Assembly: GCA_025617745.1 (NCBI GenBank)
Contig: CM046856.1
Coordinates: forward strand, 41,662,888-41,726,887
Reading direction: 5' to 3'
DNA from: Heliocidaris erythrogramma
Lineage: Eukaryota; Echinodermata; Echinoidea; Camarodonta; Echinometridae
Length of the DNA: 64,000 bases
The position numbers were made by a program, and so were the translations under genes. This document shows positions 48,600 to 52,698 of the stretch, piece by piece. Every line of letters begins with the position of its first letter. Positions within the stretch are counted from its first letter, which is position 1. The notes below the pieces were generated by a model. It worked only from the letters and a program-made list of their open reading frames with translations, had not been told where the DNA came from and did no database searches.

Positions 48600-51251
48600 T
48601 GCAAATGAAAGGAAATTTTGAATGGCCCAATAACAAAATCTGAATTATGGTCAGTCTTGAAATCAATGTCCTCAAATAAAACTCCAGGGTTGGATGGTCT
48701 TCCAAGTGAATTTTATGTAGTGTTTTTTAATGATATTGTAGATTTGATGCTGGATTCTTTCAATTTTTCTTCTTCTAATGGTTTGTTAAGTCAATCTCAA
48801 CGAAATGGAGTAATAACTCTAATATTGAAGCCAGGTAAAGATCCATTAGAAACCAAACGTTATAGGCACATTTCCTTATTAAATGTAGATTACAAATTAA
48901 TTGCCAAAGTATAATGAGTCAAAGACTTAAAAGGGTAATTAATTCTCTAATTCATACAGATCAGCAGGGATTTTTAAGTGGGCGTAATATAAGTGCAAAC
49001 ATTTGCACAATTATAGACCTCATTGAGTATACTGATGCTGTTGATGCTCCTGGTTCAATAATTCTATTAGATTTTGAAAAAGCTTTCGATAGAATCGAAC
49101 ATGAATATTTATTTAAGTCTTTAGAACAGTTTGATCTTGGTGAGAATTTTATAAATATTGTAAAAACATTTTATAATTGTAGATACAGTTATGTTATAAA
49201 TAATGGATTTTTAACAAAGCCCTTCCCTATGACTCGTGGTATTTTTCAAGGATGCCCTATTTCACCTTATTTGTTTGTTTTGGCAATCGAAATGTTAGCT
49301 ACTGCAATAAGGGTTAGCCCTGATATTAAAGGAATTAAGATAGGTAAAATAGAAAAAAAGGTTGGTCTATTTGCTGATGATACTATTTGCTTTTTGGATG
49401 GTGAAATGGACTCTTTTGTTAATTTATTTGAATTGTTAAACTATTTTGAAAGCTTTTCAGGATGTCGAGTAAATAAATTATGTCAAAATCTGAGGCCATA
49501 TATTGGAAGTTTAAAGAATAGTGACGAAAAACCTTTTGAAGAGAAAGGATTTAATTGGAGAAGCAATACCTTTAAAGCACTGGGAGTTACGTTTTCTTTG
49601 CAGACAAAGTGTTTGTATGAACTTAATTATCCCATGAAATTGAAAAAGATAGAACAAGTTATGAATTGCTGGAGACAGAGGAGTTTATCTTTAATTGGAA
49701 AGATAGCAGTTGTTAAATCTCTTTTATTGCCCCAGCTATTGTATTTGTTCTCAGTCTTATGTATAGATGTCTCTAAATCCTTTTTCAAAAAGCTGAACGG
49801 GTTGCTTTATAAATTTATCTGGAATAATGGTAATGATAGGGTGAAAAGAGTCTTACTCTGTAATTTGTATGAAGAAGGTGGCCTTAAAATGATTGATCCA
49901 AGCACTTTTGCAAAATCACAGAAAATGGTTTGGGTAAAAAATATTTTGAATGATAACTATGTGAGTACTTGGAAATATAGAAATAGAAATGTGTAGATTG
50001 TTTCATAATGACCCAGATTTACTTTGGAAAGCAGAAGCTCCTCTGAGTGTACTGAAGAAATTGAAAAATTGTCAATTGATTGAAACTTTGAAAGTCTGGT
50101 ACGAATATAGATCTTTAGTTATGAAATAATTGAATTTACATAGTTACCACAATCAGGACTATATATTTGGTATAACAAAAATGTGAGTTTAAGGCATAGA
50201 CCTTATTTTTATTATCATGCTTGGTATGAAAGAGGGATTGTCTCTCATTTGTATGGAGGTTGTAATATGGTGAAAACCTTTGAAGACCTGGTAATAGAAT
50301 TTGATATTCCTATAACTGACCGTCGCAAGTATGATTCCCTGATGAATGCTATATATTTAGATTGCTTTATTGATCACCAAGATGTTGACGAAAATATTTT
50401 TGATAGGATTGTTTCAGAGTTGCTTGGGAAAGTGAAAGTACCCAAGTATGCTTATTCTGTATTCCGCAACAAAGATCACTCTAAAAACTCAAATGTTAAA
50501 TCTACATTTAAAAGGTTGGAGGAGTGACAACATTTTTAAAATGGTAAATTAACAATTTTAACATGCTGGATCTAATAGTTTAAAGGTTGGATGCAGCATG
50601 TTAAAAGTGTTCATTTACCATTTTGAAAATGTTGTCACTCCTCCAACCTTTTAAATGTAGATTTAACATTTGAGTTTTTAGAGTGATCATTCCACACATG
50701 TCAAAGTTGGTAATAAGTGGGAAGATTGGCTTGGGTTGGACAGAAATAAAATTGAATGGTCTTCTATACATAAAAATAATTTTAAATGTACTATAGAAAC
50801 TCAGTTAAGGTCCTTTTATTCTAAAGTTTTTCATAATGCCATAGCCTTGAACTCATTTTTGTATAAAATTGGAAGAAGAGACAGTCCATTGTGCTATTTT
50901 TGTCAGGAGCTTCCTGAAACTTTGATCCATATCTTTTGTAATTGCACAGTAGTTGCTCCAATGTGGAAAAAACTTTCTGAATATATTGATCGAATGACAA
51001 AGGAGACAACACTGTACACTGACTTTGCTTATTTTGGTATTGATATTGGAGGAAAACATAATTTATGTATTAGTTTCTTATTCCTGTGCCTCAAGTTTTA
51101 TATTATTCGCTGTAAATATCAGGAGGTAGAATTGGATTTTCATAGTTTCCTTTCTTTTGTAAAATTAAAACAAAAAATTGAATACAGAATAGCAGAAAAG
51201 AAAGGTAAATTGAACTCCCATTTTAAGAAATGGTCTCTTTCATTTTTGTAG
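48600..51251 (+). pseudogene. LINE ORF2 reverse transcriptase pseudogene
   Basis: RT motifs in order: NKTPGLDGLPSEFY, KDPLETKRYRHISLLNVDYK, ILLDFEKAFDRIEHEYLF, MTRGIFQGCPISPYLFVLAI and GLFADDTICFL with the catalytic DD near 49375. Toward the end CYFCQELPETLIHIFCNCTV gives the zinc-knuckle region after RT. Frame breaks occur at 48912 and 49996 and around the foldback insert, so it is dead. The motif spelling is L1/Tx1-like; the clade is inferred. Confidence 0.92.
50474..50688. mobile_element. 215-bp foldback element inside the LINE
   Basis: About 100-base arms starting GATCACTCTAAAAACTCAAA and ending TTTGAGTTTTTAGAGTGATC are reverse complements around a short centre near 50575-50590. LINE reading resumes after 50690. 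The end CACTCTAAAAAC resembles those at 55186 and 61114. No clean target duplication seen. Confidence 0.75.
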
Positions 51252-52097
51252 AAATTTATCCCCTCCCCCCTTATTGTCAAGAACATGTAAACATCTTATC
51301 TGGTAATTACGGTTTTCTTCCCTGTTTAGTAATTAGTGGAGCCTCACTTTGATGACATAAGCTTCAGTTAAATATTCATTATAGTTGTCTCTCTATATCC
51401 TTGATGTTCATTAGGATGAGGCTTCTCTATTTTAAAGAGTTGGGGCATTGGCATTATGTTGTGATGTGTAGTGTTGTGCTGTGTTGTTTTGTATTTTTCT
51501 CTATTCACGCACACTTTTTGATATAACATGTATTGTAAATATATTATGTAGTTAGGTTTGTTTTGTTTTCAATAAAAACAAAAATACAAAAAAAACTTTG
51601 TTATATTATTATTTTTTCTGAAAATAGTGTGAGAAAAGAAACGGCACATCAGATAGGGCCTATAGGCCTACGTTACATTCAAATACGTTACGGATTGAAT
51701 GTATCAGGCAGCATGATCAACGCAAAGTGCTTTGGCGAACATATTGTAACGAAATTGGGTTTAATTTCGTAGAAAAGCTTAAGTTTTAGTACAGAAATGA
51801 TCGTTTTGGCCGATTACCGGATTGAAATAACATTTTATCAAAATGTGAGATCGATCATGTAGTTTCTGAGAAAAGAGGATGTTTTAGTTACACTTTGTAA
51901 CTTTTGTTTTTGTTATATTTGCTTTATGATTGTTACCAAGTTATTTAGCATTTTATGCCAATTCATCTGGTAGGTCATTTACCGAGGTCAAAGCAAGGAA
52001 ACTTTGGTTAGGAAAATATTAGTTTATTATTGCATGTGTATTTAATTAACCACTTTTTCTTGTACACGTAATTGCATAATTAAGTAATGGTGTATTT

Positions 52098-52282
52098 GAC
52101 CGGGCGTTGTGGCGTGCGCCTGTAATCCAGCTACCACTGGAAGTTATAAACTGATTCAGCGGACCTAGGTTCGAGACTGAGTCACGTCTTTCGGATGGTG
52201 ACGTTAAAGGTCGGTCCCAGACGTAAATAATCATATCTGATTGATACACGTCTGTAAAAACCCAATTACACACACACACACG
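52098..52282 (+). repeat. 7SL RNA/Alu-like SINE
   Basis: The head GACCGGGCGTTGTGGCGTGC followed by GCCTGTAATCCAGCTAC is very close to the Alu domain of 7SL RNA (GCCGGGCGCGGTGGCGCGTG, CCTGTAGTCCCAGCTAC). GGTTCGAGACTG serves as a B box. The tail (GTCTTTCGGATGGTGACGTT AAAGGTCGGTCCC) resembles the 3' end of invertebrate LINEs and ends in (CA)n, where LINE machinery would prime. Head and tail roles are inferred. Confidence 0.7.
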
Positions 52283-52698
52283 CTGAATAAGTGTCTACGG
52301 CTGAGTCATTCACTGTATGCTAAGTCAGCGCTCACCGAGCCTGATAGTGCGGTGGTTGACGGCTGGCTTGGTGTGCGGGCCAAATGATTCAAATGACGTT
52401 TTGTCTTTCCAAATATTGATTTGGAAGATTTCGAGAGTAACTTGTTCAATCGCTACGCCAGTGATTGATTTCTTGGCTTTTTGCCTGGCCTTCTTAGCAC
52501 CTCATCGCAGGGAAGCTGGTTGATGACAATCTACTGAAAACGAAGTCTGGACATGGTCGTGCGGTACTACGTATTTCTTGACATGGTCGTGTGGTACTGC
52601 GTATACTTCAGAAGAGTAAACTATATAGCAGAAATAGCGCAGTAGTGACGGTTTGCAGAGAAAGCAAGATTTGGAGAGAAAGCAGGTTCGACAATTAA

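Follow-up and report, generated by a model that had tools for sequence, protein, structure and literature searches.

The 64,000-nucleotide stretch of Heliocidaris erythrogramma DNA analysed here (contig CM046856.1; referred to below as the window) contains, at positions 52099–52281 of the forward strand, a full-length copy of a short interspersed element (SINE) in which a head derived from the 7SL RNA of the host is joined to the remainder of an older SINE. The explanation that we favour, and hold with considerable confidence, is that a young non-autonomous SINE family arose when the 5' domain of the host 7SL RNA (nt 1–44, with its Pol III A box) took the place of the A-box half in an older tRNA-type SINE. 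The two-part anatomy, the copy number, the host origin of the head, the higher divergence of the parental-type family, the low divergence of the present one, its 5'-truncated copies and its short target-site duplications are directly observed. The window copy begins with ACCGGGCGTTGTGGCG, closes with an (AC)n repeat and is 98.2% identical to a provisional family sequence. Its extent follows from genome matches of window positions 52090–52290; the motifs listed in the initial annotation were found where it had put them, and the true ends lie one base further in on each side.

The Rfam model Metazoa_SRP scores above its cut-off at 18 host 7SL genes (12 on contig C16, five on C4 and one on C1), and the sequences of 17 of the 18 were inspected; the genes on C16 (41246598–41716167) form two groups of tandem copies with a spacing of about 2 kb. 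The head of the SINE (family nt 1–46; window 52099–52144, + strand) shares 43 of 44 bases with nt 1–44 of the host 7SL RNA and carries, in addition, a single insertion of 2 nt in the loop of helix H4; this alignment scores 76, compared with 31 for the best of 500 shuffles. Metazoa_SRP itself recognises the element in a cmscan search with 31.9 bits (E 1e-6), below the gathering score of 70, and Rfam at the gathering threshold gave no match over the whole window. The Alu-like SINE with a 7SL RNA head that had been proposed from the sequence is thus real, as is the 7SL match of about 37 bases on which the proposal was built, although the match extends over 46 bases. The comparison with the host 7SL RNA suggested at the same time found the head similarity there and excluded its absence.

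The head corresponds to the Alu 5' domain of the signal recognition particle (SRP) RNA, with helices 2–4 (H2, H3 and H4) and the UGU motif, as identified from the family alignment, cmscan and a check of the base pairs. By the alignment and the pair check, its likeness to 7SL stops at the final base of H2, on the 3' strand. The family and host 7SL have identical pairs in H2, in H4 and at positions 4–9 of H3, and Rfam pairs 10–17 and 11–16 are non-standard in both; the window copy has a C–A mismatch in H2. The UGU motif, which in SRP RNA contacts SRP9/14, is kept in the family and lies at 52121–52123 (+), within CCTGTAATCC (52119–52128). A putative Pol III A box of the 7SL type, GGCGTTGTGG, occupies 52103–52112 (+), consists of the same bases as in host 7SL and is positioned equivalently to the A box of human 7SL (PMC7245038, in excerpt).

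Beyond the head, the element belongs to another source. The majority sequence of the family, built from 49 copies, covers 170 positions ahead of the 3' repeat; they were chosen from 55 after removal of copies less than 90% identical and of three that were either duplicates or cut. Family nt 47–90, the B-box half (window 52145–52188, +), score 12 against host 7SL, where the shuffle mean is 14.0, and 46–51 against four copies of the older SINE, where no shuffle exceeds 22. For nt 91–168, the body and tail (window 52189–52267, +), the corresponding scores are 13 (shuffle mean 14.4) and 106–126 (shuffle maximum 29). As nt 1–46 are 7SL and the sequence from nt 47 onward is that of the older SINE, the family is a head-swapped chimera, that is, by its sequence, a fusion with the junction between an A box from 7SL and a B box of the tRNA type. 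The B-box-like motif, GGTTCGAGACT, at 52168–52178 (+), was labelled from what we take to be the B-box consensus. The (AC)n repeat that ends the window copy (52268–52281, +) differs in length among copies.

The older SINE starts around GGATCAGGAGTTGGTCTAGCGGTAACGTC, contains GGTTCGAATCTC and shares its body and tail with the family; it was sampled as 10 of the 476 matches of a 26-base core with at most two mismatches. Since neither ARAGORN (seven loci) nor Rfam (two loci and a further four) called a tRNA in it, its tRNA origin rests on its A-box- and B-box-like motifs, the tRNA-type label presuming our working consensus for each box.

The relation to the recognised SINE classes follows from these scores. 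On sequence, the family is a SINE1 in the broad sense, its 5' end being derived from 7SL RNA, and is not one in the strict sense of a complete Alu domain: neither the 7SL 3' region (about nt 267–299) nor the 7SL B box was found, nt 47–90 and 91–168 rising no higher than shuffles against 7SL. Nor does it belong to SINE2, in which both boxes come from tRNA, its A-box half being 7SL. It is highly improbable that the element is nevertheless a complete SINE1, like Alu or the hagfish SINE1-1_EBu, composed of 7SL Alu 5' and 3' parts with 7SL's own B box. In favour of that reading, cmscan aligns 52099–52191 end to end with Metazoa_SRP 1–299 across a large gap, and does likewise in two of the family copies tried (L071 and L144), but the 3' part of the alignment contains many non-standard pairs, and nt 47–90 resemble the older SINE and not 7SL. 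Taking the match to the 7SL 3' end to prove that the Alu domain is complete was ruled out by the segment scores. With only the 5' domain in its head and a B-box half from the older SINE, the element is a hybrid whose Alu-like head is incomplete, which refines the initial description.

The search for further copies covered 1,064,227,859 bases in 26 contigs, C1–C21 together accounting for about 1063.9 Mb. The contig that carries COX1 (C24, 12,905 bases) has the traits of an echinoderm mitochondrial genome: translating AAA as Asn gives FPRMNNMSFWL in COX1, TGA encodes Trp, and the long frames follow one another as COX1, ND4L, COX2, ATP6, COX3, ND3, ND4, ND5, ND6 (opposite strand) and CYTB, which with the 21 large contigs suggests a sea urchin. 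Window positions 52090–52290 gave at least 45 matches on many contigs, 40 of them near full length with 96–100% identity (40 of 391 candidates scored). A 28-base head pattern, allowing two mismatches, matched 4210 times (2059 and 2151 on the two strands), and its reversed control did not match at all; true 7SL genes account for 12 of the 4210, 12 of the 18 host genes fitting the pattern. The element is thus short, dispersed and present in many copies, as a SINE should be, and the same chimeric structure was found in 49 of 49 aligned copies. These numbers exclude the single copy that, according to the initial annotation, would have pointed to a mere 7SL pseudogene. The short resemblance to primate Alu heads could suggest such a pseudogene or mammalian DNA in the assembly, yet a host-specific head, thousands of copies, one chimeric structure throughout the aligned set and host flanks on many chromosomes leave this explanation with virtually no likelihood, and the concern about mammalian contamination can be set aside.

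Two forms of the family are separated by exact 24-mers, a GCTACC form with 2716 matches and a GCTAAC form with 565. As GCTAC is present in 7SL too, GCTAAC looks derived, and for the same reason the idea of a later reversion to the GCTACC loop was rejected. Other features of the copies deserve mention. The antisense strand of the SINE carries an open frame of about 60 codons (L005, L002), and at L005 a SINE is embedded in a LINE-like frame of 904 codons, which remains open across it. In the window itself, positions 1179–1947 hold 4.2 copies of a 183-base tandem unit that by eye resembles the 3' flank of a SINE copy on C17 (L037), so that the unit is probably a dispersed repeat.

The family is young. 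Divergence, computed from some 110 bases that exclude the search words, has a median of 0.9% in the GCTACC form (17 copies; mean 1.9%, largest 17.3%), 1.8% in the GCTAAC form (seven copies) and 10.3% in the older SINE (10 copies). These samples represent 17 of 18 loci for the GCTACC form (L061, a head without a tail, was left out, and L073 entered without its 3' part), seven of 10 for the GCTAAC form (leaving out L140, a near-duplicate of L139, and the damaged L142 and L143) and all 10 for the older SINE; having been drawn by exact words, they are biased toward young copies. Copies truncated at the 5' end, starting inside the body or the tail, are also present.

Target-site duplications are detectable in the copies as a group and clear in some of them only. 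The common flank word averaged 5.32 in 28 copies, compared with 3.98 after re-pairing (maximum 4.71 in 300 re-pairings), and 5.54 compared with 3.99 (maximum 4.44) in 52 copies, some of which had been picked for a shared flank. Duplications of 13 and 12 bases are clear at L071 and L095, and 14 bases were recognised by eye at both L070 and L144; in many copies, that in the window included, no clear duplication was found. In 42 copies examined immediately ahead of ACTGGG, the two bases preceding CTGGG were A in 32 and 30 cases, and the commonest four-base endings were ACAA (eight) and TTAA (six); the extra A's may belong to the element or may have been gained upon insertion. An apparent GCT preference at the insertion sites of L035–L054 proved to be an artefact, the query having run beyond the element and selected copies with that flank.

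Some copies lie in head-to-tail arrays: at C1:7720597–7721348 five head matches are spaced exactly 181 bases apart, at C1:35967868–35969553 nine matches fall within 1.7 kb, and L048 is also arrayed. Such arrays could arise by template jumping or unequal crossing-over. They are what would be expected if a DNA-level or template-switch recombinant had spread mainly through gene conversion and tandem duplication, retrotransposition playing a minor part. We consider this highly improbable, as copies occur on many contigs with unrelated flanks, only 15 of the first 100 GCTACC places belong to such groups, and some copies have target-site duplications like those at L071 and L095. Taken together, the low divergence, the short target-site duplications, the truncation of copies at the 5' end and the (CA)n terminus point to recent copying by LINE-driven target-primed reverse transcription.

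The 3' half of the element had been annotated as a LINE tail ending in (CA)n. The (CA)n end was confirmed and a LINE origin is plausible, with no LINE sharing the tail in the stretches that were read. Tail patterns formulated so as to exclude the usual preceding SINE letters gave 94 matches, of which 20 were inspected, and a second tail pattern gave 155, of which 21 were inspected; two further patterns gave 14 matches and 10 matches, nine of the latter being inspected. The inspected stretches hold the family SINE, the older SINE or fragments starting within the tail, and no LINE sharing the tail appeared among them. Downstream of 12 of the 150 RVT_1 matches listed (L117–L128) no SINE tail was found, an absence that carries little weight as the end of the ORF was seen in only six of the 12. 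One candidate on C11, a LINE whose reverse transcriptase is followed 1.95 kb downstream by the tail, was rejected: what lies there is a SINE fragment at the (CAA)n end of the LINE itself, and the tail is not shared. This LINE (L116, C11:39799700–39804700) has an open frame of 1157 codons, including a stretch that we take to be RNase-H-like; its (CAA)n 3' end directly abuts a damaged SINE, after which comes a second SINE fragment. At L134 (C10:28882860–28883810), the terminal bases of the SINE tail alone occur twice, in a local duplication of about 272 bases with unrelated upstream sequence. The window holds a LINE remnant of its own at 48866–51248 (+; RVT_1 E 2.5e-25, zf-RVT E 1e-7), which ends about 0.85 kb upstream of the SINE copy; its 3' region contains no second match to the SINE tail. 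A tail hairpin, CAGACGT...ACGTCTG (52218–52254, +), is predicted by folding in both families and is a candidate structure for recognition by a LINE, its stability being no greater than that of shuffles (z −0.90 and −0.96).

Alu RNA consists of a 5' domain that extends as far as helix H4, followed by a 3' domain formed by helix H5; UGU is the contact for SRP9/14, and the loops of H3 and H4 pair with each other (PMC8137916, in excerpt). In the sea-urchin family the end of the graft coincides with the closure of the SRP 5' domain, and helix H5 from 7SL is absent. The stability of the 90-nt 5' part is not unusual (z −0.65), the full-length RNA, left unconstrained, folds without H4 or H2, and a fold with the 5' domain imposed is 4 kcal/mol less stable (−44.9 vs −48.9). 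A hairpin is weakly predicted at the place of H5, after the 5' domain (52151–52186, +): z is −1.59 for the family, where 11 of 200 shuffles fold equally well, and the older SINE is similar, with z −1.95. As the older SINE has a similar hairpin, this structure would have been inherited and did not arise for an SRP purpose. The GCTAAC form alters a loop base that, judging by its position, we would expect to pair, and this form nonetheless spread to its 565 exact matches.

Read from the anatomy and the Alu literature together, the RNA would be transcribed by Pol III from a hybrid promoter, with the A box of 7SL and a B box of the tRNA type. Its SRP 5' domain may then bind SRP9/14 and dock at ribosomes making the LINE reverse transcriptase, and the LINE enzyme would recognise the tail and (CA)n and insert the copy by target-primed reverse transcription. 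These steps are modelled on accounts of Alu (PMC7245038, PMC8137916, both in excerpt). There is a substantial chance, somewhat short of even, that the head was kept as a Pol III promoter only, the SRP 5' domain being a by-product with no role in spread. The weak fold evidence, the spread of the loop-changed form and the missing 7SL helix H5 would fit such a history; the graft, however, reaches the last base of H2, further than an A box alone needs, and the form with the unchanged loop is the commoner (2716 vs 565 exact matches), a difference that lineage chance could also explain.

Known 7SL SINEs were listed in 2024 only from primates, rodents and hagfishes (PMC10886601, in excerpt), and the hagfish family, in which 7SL is fused to a tRNA-type SINE, was presented as the first evident SINE1 outside Euarchontoglires (PMC7245038, in excerpt). 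Among the titles and abstract beginnings listed from the open-access literature, no report of a 7SL SINE from an invertebrate was found. The possibility of an independent origin, raised at the outset, gains support from the host-specific head and the thousands of copies, and the 7SL-headed SINE of this sea urchin apparently arose independently of the earlier ones.

As described in the same excerpts, the nearest parallel is SINE1-1_EBu of the hagfish Eptatretus burgeri (Kojima 2020, PMC7245038), where a 7SL 5' end also sits on an older tRNA-type SINE; both families are young, lack a tie to mammalian L1 and end in a 3' microsatellite. The hagfish element, however, has 96 nt of the 7SL 5' part together with a 7SL 3' part, both 7SL boxes, an RTE tail and duplications of about 17 bp, whereas the sea-urchin family has 7SL nt 1–44, the B box of the older SINE and short, variable duplications. 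Alu, B1 and their relatives in Euarchontoglires likewise begin with the A box of 7SL and the Alu 5' domain, but contain 7SL regions 1–63, 76–83 and 267–299 and end in a poly(A) used by L1; here nothing of 7SL follows nt 44, and the SINE tail is succeeded by (CA)n (PMC7245038). Going by their description in that source, the Tu SINEs of tree shrews and GarnAlu of the bushbaby are likewise chimeras of 7SL- and tRNA-derived SINEs, each joining two types of SINE inside the SINE1 lineage of mammals, while the sea-urchin family has an echinoderm 7SL and its junction between A box and B box. The sea-urchin elements SURF1/SINE2-4c_SP, SINE2-3_SP and SINE2-8_SP are listed as SINE2, headed by tRNA and not by 7SL, with CR1 or L2 LINEs as partners (PMC3747384, in excerpt); the comparison of the older SINE with them is one of listing and not of sequence.

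In its fullest form, for which we see about an even chance, the interpretation is that a 7SL-headed SINE was born independently of those in Euarchontoglires and hagfish, for the first time in an invertebrate. Only the free-standing SRP Alu 5' domain would have been grafted onto an ageing tRNA-type SINE; the graft would have revived the lineage and given it a hybrid 7SL-A-box/tRNA-B-box promoter, and the hairpin at the place of H5 would complete a fold that SRP9/14 can bind. 7SL-derived SINEs are regarded as a rarity, and the echinoderm family adds a case with the SRP Alu 5' domain alone, separating the role of this domain and the promoter from that of the remaining Alu domain. It also presents head replacement as a route to renewed activity of an old SINE, the parental type being about 10% diverged and its offspring about 1%. 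The family could make dependence on SRP9/14 testable in the sea urchin, together with a LINE that is not mammalian L1, and, if the interpretation is true, would serve as a natural experiment with a minimal module on why binding of SRP helps SINEs to spread.
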